Source: Methylobacterium haplocladii
GTDB lineage: Bacteria; Pseudomonadota; Alphaproteobacteria; Rhizobiales; Beijerinckiaceae
DNA length: 64,000 bases
Assembly: GCF_007992175.1 (NCBI RefSeq)
Contig: NZ_BJZT01000014.1
Location: forward strand, 1 to 64,000
Direction of reading: 5' to 3'
The notes below the pieces were generated by a model. The model made no database searches and was not told the origin of the DNA. It was given only the letters and a program-made list of their open reading frames with translations. The translations under genes were made by a program, and so were the position numbers. Numbering within the stretch: the stretch's first letter is position 1; the number at the start of each line of letters is the position of its first letter. Positions 53,008-59,238 of the stretch are shown in pieces.

Positions 53008-53341
53008 GGACGAGCACTCACTTTGAGCGGGGCAGGAACCCCGCACGCTTGAAGACGTGCGCTCATAGCACCGCTTTCACCGCATGGGGACACCCCACCG
53101 GCCGATTTCGTCGGGGCTGCCTGTGCGGCGATACCGTTCTTTCCGGCATCGACCGAGGGCCGAGCCCGGGGCGTCTGGTAAGAACCGCGTTCCGCCCACG
53201 CCGTTCGTGCGATCTACCGCCTCATTCACGCAACATTCGGACTCGATGGCGGAGAAGGCCGCGATCGGCTGCCGTGCTCCATGGCAGCCGCGGCCTCGTT
53301 CGGACCGTCCTTCAAGTCCGCCACTCGTGTTTCGACCACCG

Positions 53342-55984
53342 ATGCCTCCAGTGATGCCGTCTCCCATCCCGACAACGGGCGAGCATGGTGCGACCGTCGT
53401 GCCGCCTGCGCGATCGGGCTGGCGCATGCTTGCCCGGGCTCTACCCCGCGCGGTCGGGCTCGGCCTGACGGTGCTCGCCGCTTTGGCGATCGAGCGCACG
53501 CTGCGCCACGTCTCGTTCGACTCGGTCGGGGCCGCCTATGCGCAGATCCCCGATGAAGCGCTGGCACTCGCGCTCCTGCTGACGGTCGTGAGCTTCGCGG
53601 CCATCGCGGTCTACGATCTCCTCGCGGTCGAGGCCGTCGCCCCGGGCAGGATCCCGCGCGTCACCGCCCTGGTGACGGGCGCCGGCGGCTATGCCGTGTC
53701 CAACACCCTCGGCTTTCCGTTGCTGACGCAGGGCGCCTTCCGGATGCGGGCCTACGCCGCGCATGCCGGCGGCTTGGCGGATGTCGGGCGCGTGCTCGGC
53801 GCCTCGTGGTTCGCGCTGCTGATGTCGCTCGTCACCATGACGGCGCTGGCGCTCGTCTGTGGACCGGAGCACTTTCACGGGCTCGGCGGCACCACGCCGC
53901 TCCACGCGACGCTGGCCGGAACCGCCGTGCTCGGCCTCGTCGCCGGCCTGCTGGTCTGGCTCGGTGCGACGCCGCGGGTGGTCCGCGTGCGCAGCTTCAG
54001 CCTTCGGCTGCCGACCTCGCGGTCGGCGCTCCTGCAGATCGCCGCCGGCATCGTCGACATCACCGCCGCCGCGGCCACGCTCTACGTGCTCCTGCCCGCC
54101 GACGCCCTGCCGGGCTTTCCGGCCTTCCTGCTCGCCTACATCGCCGCGACCCTCGTCGGGATCGCGAGCCACGCCCCCGGCGGCCTGGGTGCGTTCGAGG
54201 CGACGCTGCTGGCGAGCCTCGGGCTCGGTGCCCGGGCCGACGTGCTCGGCGCGCTGCTCGCCTACCGGGTGATCTACACGCTGTTGCCCTTCGGCGCGGC
54301 GCTCCTCGGCCTCGGCGCGGTCGAACTGCACCGCCGCCGGGCGGCGATCGCCCGCTCCCTGCGCTTCCTCGAGCCGATGGTGCCCGCGGCCTCCGCGGCC
54401 GTCGCCCTCTCCGGCGGGATCATGCTGCTCGCCTCCGGTGCGACGCGCGACCTCGCCTCGCGCATCGCCGTCCTGGCGGAGGTGGTGCCGACGCCCTTCG
54501 TCGAAGCCTCGCATTTCGCCTCCTGCCTCGTCGGGGTCGCGCTGCTGGTCATCGCCCGCGGGCTCTACCGGCGACTGGTGCGCGCCTGGAACGCGGCGCT
54601 GATGCTGCTCGTCCTCGGCGCCGGCTTCTCGCTCGGTAAGGGGCTCGATTGGGAGGAGGCGACGCTGCTCGGCGCGCTCGCCCTGTGCCTCGCCATGGTC
54701 CGGGGCTCGTTCTACCGCTGCCCGAAGGCCAACCCCTTCGCGGTGAGCAGGGTCTGGCTGCGCCGGGCCGGCCTCGGCCCGATGCTCGCAGCCGCCGGTA
54801 TCCTGACGACGGCCTCGGCGGGCCTCGGCTTCCTCGCCTTCAGGCACGGCGCCAGCGCCGACGCGCTGTGGTGGCAGATCTCGTGGGACGGCAGCGGGCC
54901 GGGGCTGGCGCGCGTCTCCTTCGCCTTCGTGGTTGGGCTCGCCGCCATCGGCTTCGACAGCGCCGTGAATCATCGCGGCCGCCGCCGCGCGGCCGAGCCG
55001 ACGATCCCGGCCGAGATTGCCGACATCGTCGGGGCCTCCACGAACGCTTCCGCCGCCATGGCGCTGCTGGGCGACAAGGAATTCCTGACCTCCGCCGAAG
55101 GCGTCGGCTTCGTGATGTATGCCCGCGCCGGCCGCAGCCTTGTGGCGCTCGGCGATCCGGTCGGCCCGACCCGGCTCCAGGCCGATCTCGCCTGGGCGTT
55201 CCGCGAGCTTGCCGACCGCGCCGCGGCGCGACCGGTCTTCTACGGCGTCGGCCCCGACAACCTCGCCCTGTTCCTCGACATGGGCCTCTCCGCGCTGAAG
55301 CTCGGCGAGGTCGCCCGCGTCCCGCTGGCCGACTTCTCGCTGAAGGGTCCGGCGCGGCACGACCTGCGCTATGGCCAGCGCCGTGCCGAGAAGGAGGGGC
55401 TGACCTTCGAGATCGTGCCGCGCGAGAAAGTGCGGCTCACGATGTACGAGCTGCGCCAGGTCTCGAACGCCTGGCTCGCGCACAAGCAGGGCGGCGAGAA
55501 GCGTTTCTCCATGGGGGCCTTCGACCCCGCCTATCTCGCCCGCTTCGACATCGCGGTGATGAAGAAGGAGGGCCGCATCGTCGCCTTCGCCAACCTGCTG
55601 CGCGGCGCCGACCGCAACGAGATCGCCATCGACCTGATCCGCTACGCCCCGGACGCCTCGAAGGTGATCATGGACGCGCTGTTCGCCAACCTGCTGCTGG
55701 CGGCGAAGGCCGAGGGCTATCGTTGGTTCAACCTCGGCGCGGCGCCACTCTCCGGCCTCGTCGACCGGCGGCTGGCCTCGCGCTGGAACCGCTTCGGCAC
55801 CTTCCTCTATCGCCGCGGCGCCGACCTCTACAGCTTCGACGGCCTGCGCAGCTTCAAGCAGAAGTTCGACCCGGTCTGGACGCCCTACTACCTGATCTGC
55901 CCCGGCGGCCTGCAGACGCCCAAGACCCTGCTCGACGTGACGACCCTGGTGAACGGCTCGCCGCTCGGCCTGATCCGGCGATGA
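53342..55984 (+). CDS. mprF: Bifunctional lysylphosphatidylglycerol flippase/synthetase (MprF/LpiA)
   Basis: 880 residues if ATG 53342 is the start; ATG 53246 and ATG 53354 are alternatives, and the longer frame to 53084 is not family-like. The N-terminal half is a polytopic flippase (about a dozen helices, e.g. LGLTVLAALAIERTL, ALALLLTVVSFAAIAVYDLL), with NTLGFPLLTQGAFRMRAYA. The C-terminal half is the cytosolic GNAT-like synthase (FVMYARAGRSLVALGDPVGP, NFLNLGAAPLSGL-type FNLGAAPLSGLVDRRLASRW). It adds lysine from Lys-tRNA to phosphatidylglycerol and flips the product, which raises resistance to cationic peptides and acid. Its stop overlaps the start of the acvB-like gene (ATGA). Confidence 0.94.
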   Translation: MPPVMPSPIPTTGEHGATVVPPARSGWRMLARALPRAVGLGLTVLAALAIERTLRHVSFDSVGAAYAQIPDEALALALLLTVVSFAAIAVYDLLAVEAVAPGRIPRVTALVTGAGGYAVSNTLGFPLLTQGAFRMRAYAAHAGGLADVGRVLGASWFALLMSLVTMTALALVCGPEHFHGLGGTTPLHATLAGTAVLGLVAGLLVWLGATPRVVRVRSFSLRLPTSRSALLQIAAGIVDITAAAATLYVLLPADALPGFPAFLLAYIAATLVGIASHAPGGLGAFEATLLASLGLGARADVLGALLAYRVIYTLLPFGAALLGLGAVELHRRRAAIARSLRFLEPMVPAASAAVALSGGIMLLASGATRDLASRIAVLAEVVPTPFVEASHFASCLVGVALLVIARGLYRRLVRAWNAALMLLVLGAGFSLGKGLDWEEATLLGALALCLAMVRGSFYRCPKANPFAVSRVWLRRAGLGPMLAAAGILTTASAGLGFLAFRHGASADALWWQISWDGSGPGLARVSFAFVVGLAAIGFDSAVNHRGRRRAAEPTIPAEIADIVGASTNASAAMALLGDKEFLTSAEGVGFVMYARAGRSLVALGDPVGPTRLQADLAWAFRELADRAAARPVFYGVGPDNLALFLDMGLSALKLGEVARVPLADFSLKGPARHDLRYGQRRAEKEGLTFEIVPREKVRLTMYELRQVSNAWLAHKQGGEKRFSMGAFDPAYLARFDIAVMKKEGRIVAFANLLRGADRNEIAIDLIRYAPDASKVIMDALFANLLLAAKAEGYRWFNLGAAPLSGLVDRRLASRWNRFGTFLYRRGADLYSFDGLRSFKQKFDPVWTPYYLICPGGLQTPKTLLDVTTLVNGSPLGLIRR

Positions 55985-57357
55985 GGCCCGGCCGCCGCCG
56001 CGTTCTGCTCGGCGGGGCGGCTGTTCTCGCGGCCGTCATCGGGGCCGGCCTGCTGCTTCCACACCCAAAAGCGCCGTCGCGCGTGCCCGAGCGGATCTCG
56101 TCCGCCCAGATCGAGGACGTGCTGGTGGAGCCTCCGGCCGGCACGCCGGTGGGCCTCGCCGCGATCGTCTCCGATGCCGGCGGGACGGGGCCTGCGGAGC
56201 ATGCGCTGGGAGACGCCCTGCGCGCGCGCGGCCTCATCGTGCTCCAGCTCGATTGGGCGCGATGGCGCGCCGCCCTCGACCGCGAGACCACGCCCTGCAT
56301 CCGGCCGATCGTCGATGTCGAGCTGCTGGCCAAGGAGGCGCAGCGAACGCTGAAGGGTCAGAGCTACCTGCGCCCTGTCCTCGTCGGCCGCGGCGAGGGC
56401 GGCACACTCGTCGAGGCGATCCTGTCGCGGGCGTTGCCGGCGACCCTCGGCGGCGGCGTCGCCCTCGATCCGGCGGTCGCGCTTCGCACCGTCCGCCCGC
56501 TCTGCGACGACGCCGCGCCGGTCGCCGCAGCGGTCTCCCTACCGGAGGGCGGCTTCGCCTACCCGCTGCCGGCGCGGAGTCAGGCTCAGCTGACAATCGT
56601 GAGCGCGGAGGCCGCGCCGGCCCCGCCCGAGCCTGCGCCCGGTGCCGGCCCCTTCGCGGTCGAGCGGCACGCAGAGCCGGATCCCGCCCGCCGTAGCGCC
56701 GCCGCACTCGACGCCGCAGCGGCGATCGCGGCGCAGGATGCCGGAACCGGCGGCCTGCCCCTGGTCGACCTGCCGGCTGTCGGCAGGACGCGCGCGGTCG
56801 CCCTGTTCGTCTCCGGCGACGGCGGATGGCGCGACATCGACAAGACCATCGGCGAGCGCTTGACGCGCGAGGGCATCCACGTCGTCGGCCTCGACGCCCT
56901 GCGCTACTACTGGACGGATCGCGACCCCAAGGCCGTCGCCGCCGACGTCGCCGCGATGCTGCAGGAGGCCGACCCCGGCAAGACGCTGCCGGTGATGGTG
57001 CTCGGCTACTCCTTCGGTGCCGACCTGTTTCCGTTCTCATGGCCGTACCTGCCGGCGTCGCTCCGCGACCGCATCCGGCTGATCGCCCTGCTGGCGCCGA
57101 GCCGCAGCACCGGGTTCAGCGTTTCGGTGAAGGGCTGGCTCGGCCTCGGCGGCGAGCACGCCGTGGTGCCGCAACTCGCGGCGCTCCCGGCCGATCGCGT
57201 GCTCTGCATCCACGGCTCGAAGGAAACGGACTCGCCCTGCCGCGACCCGAGCCTCGCCGCCACACGAAAGCTCCTCATCGACGGCGGCCACCACTTCGAC
57301 GGCGACTACCCGGCCATCGCCCGCCGCATCGTCGAGGCGGCCCGACTGCCGGAGTGA
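55981..57357 (+). CDS. acvB: AcvB/VirJ-family periplasmic protein, probable lysyl-PG hydrolase
   Basis: 458 residues from ATG 55981, overlapping mprF by four bases. An N-terminal signal/anchor (GRRRVLLGGAAVLAAVIGAG) exports it. The C-terminal half is the VirJ alpha/beta-hydrolase region: ALFVSGDGGWRDIDKTIGER, nucleophile Ser in LGYSFGADL (GxSxG), ALLAPSRSTGF and HGSKETDSPC. In Agrobacterium tumefaciens AcvB counters LpiA by degrading lysyl-phosphatidylglycerol, and the gene pair is conserved; the same role is the natural reading here. The N-terminal half (VGLAAIVSDAGGTGPAEHAL) is a second, more diverged copy of the same fold. Confidence 0.9.
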   Translation: MRPGRRRVLLGGAAVLAAVIGAGLLLPHPKAPSRVPERISSAQIEDVLVEPPAGTPVGLAAIVSDAGGTGPAEHALGDALRARGLIVLQLDWARWRAALDRETTPCIRPIVDVELLAKEAQRTLKGQSYLRPVLVGRGEGGTLVEAILSRALPATLGGGVALDPAVALRTVRPLCDDAAPVAAAVSLPEGGFAYPLPARSQAQLTIVSAEAAPAPPEPAPGAGPFAVERHAEPDPARRSAAALDAAAAIAAQDAGTGGLPLVDLPAVGRTRAVALFVSGDGGWRDIDKTIGERLTREGIHVVGLDALRYYWTDRDPKAVAADVAAMLQEADPGKTLPVMVLGYSFGADLFPFSWPYLPASLRDRIRLIALLAPSRSTGFSVSVKGWLGLGGEHAVVPQLAALPADRVLCIHGSKETDSPCRDPSLAATRKLLIDGGHHFDGDYPAIARRIVEAARLPE

Positions 57358-57625
57358 TCCCGGTTCCGGTCGATGCGTTCGGACCATCATCAGTCCAATG
57401 CCGAGCCGTCATTGCGAGCCGAAGGCGAAGCAATCCAGGGCCAACGCCCTGACGTCCGCGTGTTGGCCCTGGATCGCTTCGCTTCGCTCGCGATGACGAG
57501 GAGAATTTCGATCCAACCAACCCGAAACAGGATGCAGCGCCGCCGCGTCGGCCCTCGGACCGCTCGGCGGATCTTGAGCGTTGGCATCGCGACGCCCGGC
57601 TACGCCACAGACCGACGAGGACACG
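57358..57625. other. Intergenic region with a large palindromic repeat
   Basis: 268 bases between acvB and the phosphatase gene, mostly filled by the palindrome at 57408-57498. It may limit read-through between the two units. The short frames are not family-like. Confidence 0.5.
57408..57498. repeat. Intergenic palindromic repeat (BIME-like), copy 2
   Basis: Outer arms CGTCATTGCGAG and CTCGCGATGACG, then GCGAAGCAATCCAGGGCC on the left and GGCCCTGGATCGCTTCGC on the right, with a loop of about 20 bases. A nearly perfect inverted repeat of about 38 bp per arm, related to the copy at 23248-23332. Confidence 0.8.
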
Positions 57626-58093
57626 ATGACCGACCGCAAATCCGCCGTGCTGTTCGTCTGCCTCGGCAACATCTGTCGCTCGCCCCTGGCCGAGGCCGCC
57701 TTCCGTCAGGAGGCCGAGCGCGCCGGCCTCGACGTCACGGTGGACTCGGCTGGCACCGGCGCCTGGCATGTCGGCAATCCGCCGGACCGCCGCGCGCAGG
57801 CGGTGGCGCTCTGCAACGGCGTCGACATCTCCGGCTACGACGCGCGGCAGGTGAAGCCCGAGGACTTCGCCCGCTTCACCGACATCGTCGCCCTCGACCG
57901 CGACAACCTCGCGGTGCTGGAGCGGATGCGGCCGGAGGGCGGGGCCGCCCTGTCTCTCCTCCTCGACCACGTGCCGGGCCGCCGGGGCGAGGCCGTGGCC
58001 GACCCCTATTACGGCAGCGATGCCGGCTTCGACACGACCTGGGCCGACGTGACCGCAGGCGCCCGCGCCCTCGTCGCAGCATTGTCGCGGTGA
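57626..58093 (+). CDS. Low-molecular-weight protein tyrosine phosphatase
   Basis: 155 residues from ATG 57626. The P-loop CX5RS is in FVCLGNICRSPLAEAAF (Cys12, Arg18), the dyad acid in DPYYGSDAGFD, and the VDSAGTGAWHVG segment is typical. It hydrolyses phosphotyrosine, but some family members act as ribulosamine-5-phosphatases. It is coupled (GTGA overlap) to a fructosamine-kinase-family gene, and that pairing makes a deglycation role more likely than signalling. Confidence 0.94.
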   Translation: MTDRKSAVLFVCLGNICRSPLAEAAFRQEAERAGLDVTVDSAGTGAWHVGNPPDRRAQAVALCNGVDISGYDARQVKPEDFARFTDIVALDRDNLAVLERMRPEGGAALSLLLDHVPGRRGEAVADPYYGSDAGFDTTWADVTAGARALVAALSR

Positions 58094-58893
58094 GCGGTCT
58101 CGCCGGGCACGGCGCCACCCTCCTCGGCGGCCGCCTCGCGCGGGCCGAGGCCATCGGCGGCGGCGATCTGTCGTGCGTCGTGCGGGTCGTGCTCGAGGAC
58201 GGGCGCGAGGCGGTGGTGAAGGACGGGCCGGACCCGCCGGCCGAGGCCGCGATGCTGCGCGCGATCCGCGCCACCGGCACGCCCGCGCCGGAGGTTCTGG
58301 CCGCCGACGCCTCCGCCCTCGTCCTGGAGCGCCTGCCCGACAGCGGCCATCGCGGCGCCGACGCGGATCTCGGCCGTGCCGTCGCCCGGCTCCATGCCGC
58401 GACGGGCGAGCGCTACGGCTGGGCGCAGGACTTCGCCTTCGGCCGGGTCGCGATCAAAAACGGCTGGAGCGCGGACTGGCCCGCCTTCTGGGCCGAGCGC
58501 CGCCTGCTCTGCCACGTCCCGCATTGCGATCCCGCGCTCGGGCGGTGCGTCGAGTCCCTGGCCGCCTCCCTCTCCCGAAGACTGCCGGCGCGGCCGCGCC
58601 CGGCCCTGCTGCACGGCGACCTCTGGGGCGGAAACGTGCTGTGCCACGGCGCACGCGTCTCCGGCCTGATCGACCCGGCCTGCTATTACGGCCACGCCGA
58701 GGTCGACCTGGCCACGCTCGCCCTGTTCGGCCGCCCCGGCCCGGCCTTTCGCGAGGCCTACGGCCCGGCCGAACCGGGCTTTTCCGAGCGCGTGCCGCTC
58801 TACCAGCTCTGGCCGGCGCTCGTGCACCTGCGGCTGTTCGGTGCGGGCTATCGGGGGATGGTCGCGGGGTTGCTGGACGCAGTGGGTGCGTGA
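58090..58893 (+). CDS. Fructosamine/ketoamine 3-kinase family protein
   Basis: 267 residues from GTG 58090, overlapping the phosphatase stop by four bases. Kinase-like fold: EAVVKDGPDPPAEAAMLRAI (the ATP Lys), catalytic loop LLHGDLWGGNVL, and GLIDPACYYGHAEVDLATLA (metal-binding Asp). The FN3K family phosphorylates ketosamine adducts on proteins, destabilising them so that the amine is freed; bacterial members prefer ribulosamine or erythrulosamine. Length is normal for bacterial homologues. The coupled phosphatase supports a role in protein repair. Confidence 0.92.
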   Translation: MSGLAGHGATLLGGRLARAEAIGGGDLSCVVRVVLEDGREAVVKDGPDPPAEAAMLRAIRATGTPAPEVLAADASALVLERLPDSGHRGADADLGRAVARLHAATGERYGWAQDFAFGRVAIKNGWSADWPAFWAERRLLCHVPHCDPALGRCVESLAASLSRRLPARPRPALLHGDLWGGNVLCHGARVSGLIDPACYYGHAEVDLATLALFGRPGPAFREAYGPAEPGFSERVPLYQLWPALVHLRLFGAGYRGMVAGLLDAVGA

Positions 58894-59238
58894 GCTGGAG
58901 GGCTGGATCCGCGTCGCCGTCCGGCGTTGGATCTTTTTGAGTTTTGTCGAGGCTAGCCGGCCGCTTGCGATCCGACCGCGCTGCTCGCGAGCTTTCCGCG
59001 TCGTCTGAAACGCGGTCGTCCCTTCACGTGGATGTCGCCATGCGAGACTACCTTCGCTTGCCTTGCACGTTAGAGTAAGCGTTTCGACCTGAGTTACAGG
59101 TTCGCAGCGATCATTAGTCCCCTAGAAATCCTAATCCTTGAGCACATCAGGTAGTTTTTGTCCGCTAGACATTGCGGTATCACCGGGTGATAGGCGTCGC
59201 CGAAAGGTCGGTCCCACGGCCGTGCTTGCCTGTTATTC
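58894..59238. other. Intergenic region of about 345 bp, nothing recognised
   Basis: Between the FN3K-like gene and the 3' end of the TetR gene (convergent). No gene, terminator or repeat can be supported. A short plus frame (59172-59414) runs antisense into the TetR gene and is a shadow. Confidence 0.5.

Follow-up and report, generated by a model that had tools for sequence, protein, structure and literature searches.

A class-I low-molecular-weight phosphatase gene overlapping a fructosamine-3-kinase-family gene in Methylobacterium: a probable two-gene deglycation operon

Tyrosine phosphatase is the common annotation for bacterial low-molecular-weight (LMW) phosphatases, and the pairing of one with a fructosamine-3-kinase (FN3K) homologue could help to tell whether these enzymes work in protein repair instead of signalling. 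Such a pair lies in the window, by which we mean the whole 64,000-nucleotide stretch of Methylobacterium haplocladii DNA analysed here. A sequence-only reading of the locus had called an LMW phosphatase gene and a fructosamine-kinase-family gene that share a GTGA overlap, and had assigned them to a single deglycation pathway rather than to phosphotyrosine signalling. Does the assignment hold? The two gene calls are correct to the base, with Pfam recognizing both products (Table 1). We consider the pair probably to be a two-gene operon for deglycation, that is, protein repair, on the combined grounds of gene identities, kept catalytic residues, overlap, conserved gene order and joint presence or absence.

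Table 1 Features of the phosphatase–kinase locus (positions in the window)
Feature	Position	Strand	Details
Class-I LMW phosphatase gene	57626..58093	+	P0001, 155 aa; C12-x5-R18-S19 P-loop, general acid D126 in DPYYG
GTGA stop/start overlap (phosphatase TGA, kinase GTG)	58090..58093	+	4 nt common to both ORFs
Fructosamine-3-kinase-family gene (probable ribulosamine/erythrulosamine 3-kinase)	58090..58893	+	P0002, 267 aa, GTG start; K44, E52, D177, W179, N182, D195
Weak terminator-like hairpin 3′ of the kinase gene	58911..58927	+	2 such sites in the scanned region versus 1.1 expected

The two gene products and their junction

The phosphatase, P0001, matches Pfam LMWPc with E = 5e-35 and carries the complete class-I LMW (PF01451) motifs, C12, N15, R18 and S19 together with DPYY at D126–Y129; it is a predicted member of the class-I LMW protein phosphatase family with its catalytic residues kept. 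The closest solved structures are LMW phosphatases, among them 5jnr and 2cwd, the latter ranking fourth by sequence. We take 2cwd to come from T. thermophilus, whose operon phosphatase reportedly dephosphorylates ribulosamine 5-phosphates.

The kinase, P0002, matches Pfam Fructosamin_kin (PF03881) with E = 3e-43 and 148.4 bits (curated cut-off 22.4) and, more weakly, APH (E = 4e-20, 73.0 bits); on sequence grounds it is a member of the fructosamine/ketosamine-3-kinase family. Its catalytic set is present (Table 1), with D177 and W179 lying in an HGDLW motif at residues 175–179. The Trp of this motif, described in passages of PMC11754801 as unique to FN3K kinases, is kept in 95 of 100 coupled kinase relatives (those with a phosphatase gene upstream) and in 112 of 114 uncoupled ones. 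The top solved relatives, 3f7w, 6oid and 9cx8, are all named fructosamine or ribulosamine 3-kinases, and P0002 is 68–74% identical to the kinases of named Methylobacterium/Methylorubrum relatives.

We compared P0002 with the substrate contacts of human FN3K, for which passages of PMC13223202 give I25, D217 and W219 alone as essential. Two of these three match, D217 and W219 corresponding to D177 and W179. Across the nine human contacts, mapped by motif with F252 and G152 unmapped, P0002 keeps the equivalents of D217, W219, H288 and F292 and differs at three positions (I25 to L27, N287 to V245 and H291 to L249). Leucine at the I25 position also occurs in 51 of the 100 coupled kinase relatives. 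In alignments, 6oid has leucine at the H291 position, and 3f7w has valine and leucine at the N287 and H291 positions, so V245 and L249 are shared with other members of the family.

The phosphatase ATG follows a GAGG stretch, and no Shine–Dalgarno-like sequence was found directly before the kinase GTG; we therefore infer that the kinase is likely to be translationally coupled to the phosphatase. All 17 loci found in the genus have a 4-nt overlap, either ATGA or GTGA. Of the 100 coupled loci, 65 offer a −4 overlap and three a −1 overlap, as counted by a script that chose an overlapping start whenever one was available and is thus biased towards overlaps. The phosphatase stop permits a −4 overlap in 78 loci, with about 26 expected at a random frame (a third, by our own estimate), so the overlap is commoner than chance would give. 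The hairpin beyond the kinase gene is not significant given the number of such sites expected (Table 1).

Upstream of the pair the window contains mprF-like and VirJ/AcvB-like genes, and downstream a TetR gene on the opposite strand. At 53084–57357 the MprF-type gene, with an LPG synthase C-terminal domain, overlaps the VirJ/AcvB-type gene, an arrangement that we take to resemble the lpiA–acvB pair of rhizobia. Between acvB and the phosphatase gene, at 57407–57498, lies a near-perfect palindrome of about 90 nt (RNA fold −70.5 kcal/mol, z −10); its arm motif has 66 copies in the genome and a reversed control has none, indicating a dispersed REP/MITE-like element. A larger conserved operon was not seen when the mprF, acvB, TetR, SDR and aminotransferase genes were used as queries against all loci then in the set, whose flanks are short. 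The AcvB neighbour was matched in one locus (L008) besides the window's own, and the SDR neighbour, from a very common family, gave weak matches (27–35%) in seven loci, of which L152 alone is coupled.

Distribution of the pair

Seventeen of the 59 species of the genus, M. haplocladii included, carry the kinase, and the phosphatase lies directly upstream in all 17. A class-I phosphatase (E < 1e-30) occurs in the same 17 species and in one more, G045, and 41 species have neither gene; Fisher's test on this joint presence and absence gives p = 6e-14, a value that ignores relatedness. The best LMWPc match in the other 41 is far weaker (E > 1e-17), and these matches were taken for putative arsenate-reductase-like proteins. 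The single member of the 59 with a phosphatase and without a detectable kinase is thus G045 (locus L111, contig C14): no kinase remnant was detected behind its lone phosphatase, and the next gene downstream looks, from its sequence, like one for a Clp-type protease. A methylotroph genus in which the single class-I LMW phosphatase occurs almost only with the kinase offers a tractable setting for asking whether such phosphatases act in repair or in signalling.

In the kinase tree all 25 rows from the genus group together (support 94), and in the phosphatase tree a single genus group is compatible and not rejected (AU p = 0.89; the tree constrained to one group is the better one). Within the genus the pair therefore seems to have been passed on as a unit, and the simplest reading is one origin there, with joint absence in its other species through loss or because the genes were never gained. 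Joint horizontal transfer within the genus was dropped as an explanation on these same groupings.

The genus also bears on tyrosine signalling. Hits above the curated cut-off of TIGR01007, a bacterial tyrosine-kinase-like model, were found in one of the 18 phosphatase carriers and in five of the 41 species lacking the phosphatase; at E 1e-22, a threshold picked after seeing the data, the counts were 4 of 18 versus 28 of 41 (Fisher 0.0016, ignoring relatedness). Because the model also catches related P-loop ATPases, weak matches are not proof of a tyrosine kinase. In the genus the phosphatase tracks the FN3K homologue and not tyrosine-kinase-like genes. These counts, together with gene order and overlap conserved in many lineages, make it improbable that the phosphatase is an ordinary protein-tyrosine or phosphoprotein phosphatase, serving exopolysaccharide or signalling, that stands beside the kinase gene by accident. 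That alternative draws on the Pfam and PDB names, which say tyrosine phosphatase, and on catalytic residues that are those of the family: a residue comparison found none specific to the coupled phosphatases or cleanly splitting them from unlinked ones, so specialisation is not visible in the sequence.

Beyond the genus we examined several sets of kinase loci. In a draw of relatives, 19 of 30 loci were coupled: the 17 genus loci and two more, G086 and G088. The 30 loci come from 33 listed places; the match at L030 is weak, and the upstream DNA is shorter than 650 nt at L006 and L011. In a class draw of 385 genomes the phosphatase was upstream in 46 of 54 examined kinase loci. These 54 come from 55 strong kinase places, with G382 left out and places with E > 1e-6 outside the count; two are pieces of one genome, one of which (L183) has no upstream DNA, and two are genus members also counted there. 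Coupling is the usual state among the sampled alphaproteobacterial kinase loci. The sequence-only reading had named a pair that is not conserved as evidence against itself; the genus and class counts leave it standing on this point.

Among the best 80 of 95 named relatives of the window kinase, 32 loci were coupled and 48 uncoupled (L101 and L108 have less than 650 nt upstream). The coupled ones include three Candidatus Sumerlaeota loci and a Gammaproteobacteria-labelled MAG contig (L106), so coupling also occurs outside the class; the phosphatase of L106 groups with the Candidatus Sumerlaeota ones. Rhodobacterales-type loci are among the uncoupled. When 16 of the 48 uncoupled genomes were searched (15 Rhodobacterales-type by name and Marinicella sp. 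W31), all 16 were found to encode an unlinked phosphatase, 44–56% identical, one of them in a frame with an internal stop. In a phylum draw of 398 genomes none of the 30 best-scoring kinase loci was coupled, and 20 extra hand-picked loci yielded five coupled, all among the eight of the same class; outside the class none of 42 examined loci was coupled, all 42 with 650 nt or more of DNA ahead of the kinase match. The phosphatase came first in all 100 coupled loci, and at uncoupled loci no phosphatase was found downstream of the kinase or elsewhere in the flanking DNA examined. A Trueperaceae-labelled MAG contig (L050) carries a kinase 57% identical to that of the window and more like alphaproteobacterial ones; it is likely to be mis-binned or the product of a transfer.

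Conserved order, overlap and joint presence or absence indicate that the two genes belong to one functional unit. Together with the intact residues and the failure of the phosphatase to follow tyrosine-kinase-like genes in the genus, they support the core of the earlier assignment, one deglycation pathway and not phosphotyrosine signalling. Its further suggestion, that such damage could matter to methylotrophs handling formaldehyde, found no support. The host genus is methylotrophic, but 42 of its 59 members lack the kinase and many coupled relatives are found elsewhere, so that this rationale is not supported. We dropped the link to methylotrophy: coupled loci occur in Commensalibacter, Jiella and sphingomonads, none of which is known to us as methylotrophic. 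Formaldehyde, having no alpha-hydroxyl, cannot yield the ketosamine used by FN3K-type kinases.

Descent of the two genes and a YgfZ-like neighbour

We built a tree from 96 coupled and 20 uncoupled phosphatases, 116 in all, in which the window protein falls in a 51-row clade with an SH-aLRT support of 99. Coupled loci make up 49 of the 51 rows, the two uncoupled members being G045 (L111) and G085 (L181). Another 44 rows, all coupled, form a set with lower support (87). Over the whole tree the coupled/uncoupled label changes six times, versus a mean of 18.8 for shuffled labels. Distances in the phosphatase and kinase trees correlate over 96 loci (Spearman 0.86, with none of 999 permutations as high), which is expected from co-inheritance but also from plain common descent. 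The trees are quick searches, and the 116-row tree has two unreliable rows, L143 and L150; the paired trees cover 96 of the 100 coupled loci, with L143 and L150 left out by name and L098 and L159 by length.

A different neighbour recurs among the phosphatase-less loci. In 20 of the 48 such loci of the named set, all Rhodobacterales-type, the kinase is preceded at short distance by the end of a same-strand YgfZ/CAF17-like (COG0354) gene (L051, L052, L055, L057–L060, L062–L065, L067, L069–L071, L073, L074, L078, L080 and L083); in L082 such a gene lies about 1.1 kb from the kinase. Nine upstream proteins from this group were put to Pfam, and all nine were YgfZ-like. A functional link of glycation repair with iron–sulfur repair is possible. 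No paper joining YgfZ with fructosamine kinase was among the matches listed for open-licence PMC papers, and the word 'fructosamine' is absent from PMC3223725, on COG0354.

A wider proposal, which we put forward tentatively and lean slightly against, has two parts that stand together. In Alphaproteobacteria, dedicated 'tyrosine phosphatase' lineages would be ketosamine-phosphate phosphatases, inherited and lost with the kinase and without a role in tyrosine signalling, so that a large group would be misannotated; and the Rhodobacterales kinase would have switched partner to an iron–sulfur repair protein (YgfZ/COG0354), hinting that glycation repair protects iron–sulfur or folate enzymes.

A candidate pathway and its relation to known systems

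For the window proteins, every enzymatic step and the substrate are proposed from family biochemistry. Ketosamine phosphates would form on lysines from ribose 5-phosphate or erythrose 4-phosphate. The phosphatase, as product of the first gene, would strip the terminal phosphate (the 5-phosphate of ribose-5-phosphate adducts) to leave ribulosamine or erythrulosamine, the kinase would phosphorylate O3 of this product, and the resulting 3-phosphate would fall apart spontaneously, freeing the lysine. Ribose 5-phosphate adducts must lose their 5-phosphate before an FN3K-type kinase can act. Passages of PMC11754801 and PMC13223202 describe O3 phosphorylation of a ketosamine as giving an unstable product from which the amine is freed, and those of PMC11754801 give ribulosamine 3-phosphate a half-life of about 25 min, with spontaneous decay.

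Such decay of ketosamine 3-phosphates argues against a reversible switch, in which kinase and phosphatase would oppose each other on one target instead of forming a linear pathway, and we regard that arrangement as very improbable. Adjacent kinase and phosphatase genes can, as a matter of general knowledge, form switches, but characterised LMW phosphatases are said to lack ribulosamine 3-phosphatase activity.

The pair might instead act mainly on free small ketosamines or sugar-amine metabolites, salvaging or detoxifying compounds such as ribuloselysine or cadaverine adducts, and not on protein-bound lysines; derivatives of free lysine and of cadaverine are said to be the best substrates of bacterial homologues. 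Passages of PMC1821047 group the family with choline/aminoglycoside-type small-molecule kinases, and P0002 has its APH match. We nevertheless find this unlikely, as glycated protein is also a substrate of the characterised human members (passages of PMC13223202) and the nearest neighbours, considered for the window alone (mprF-like, AcvB-like and TetR genes), are not obvious transport or catabolism genes for such compounds. A deglycation operon remains our preferred reading; the sequences also supply counterpoints to it, namely the lack of a diagnostic phosphatase residue, L27, V245 and L249 in the kinase, the kinase-less G045 and the 48 of 80 named loci that are uncoupled.

Several known systems resemble the pair in part. 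Fortpied et al. reportedly identified human LMW-PTP-A as a protein-ribulosamine-5-phosphatase in 2007. The structure 5jnr, which we take to be this isoform A, aligns with P0001 over residues 6–149 and shares its family, CLGNICRSP loop, GNPPD segment and DPYYG motif; it differs in reading SGYEIGNPPD where P0001 has GAWHVGNPPD. We know of no operon context for the human enzyme. A repair role for LMW phosphatases has, to our knowledge, biochemical support, and we know of no genetic test. The best 30 kinase loci of the phylum draw, presumably YniA-type kinases of Gammaproteobacteria, belong to the same Pfam family as P0002 but score 369–410 bits against its 148, and none of them has the phosphatase upstream. 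Human FN3K, the FN3K-related protein (KT3K) and the plant ribulosamine 3-kinase 6oid share the HGDLW...N...DP catalytic core; human FN3K differs in having I25, N287 and H291 in place of L, V and L in P0002, and passages of PMC13223202 and PMC11754801 mention no phosphatase partner for these kinases.

No work on this phosphatase–kinase coupling was among the matches listed for open-licence PMC papers. Judged by its layout, with the phosphatase immediately upstream on the same strand and a 4-nt overlap, the window pair appears to be a member of a published operon type, and the idea itself is not new, having been proposed in 2007. In that year Gemayel et al. are said to have described operons of an FN3K homologue and an LMW-PTP in bacteria, with the pair in 11 genomes. 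The T. thermophilus and S. aureus phosphatases were reportedly active on ribulosamine 5-phosphates, and the same pathway was reportedly concluded for the bacterial pairs. The window pair shares with those operons a phosphatase gene immediately before the kinase gene on the same strand, the same two families and the same proposed pathway. It differs in coming from another lineage, one in which coupling is the rule in the class draw and the two genes are jointly present or absent within one genus. This analysis adds the extent of the alphaproteobacterial coupling, the joint presence and absence within a single genus, the conserved translational overlap and a phosphatase clade made up almost wholly of kinase neighbours.
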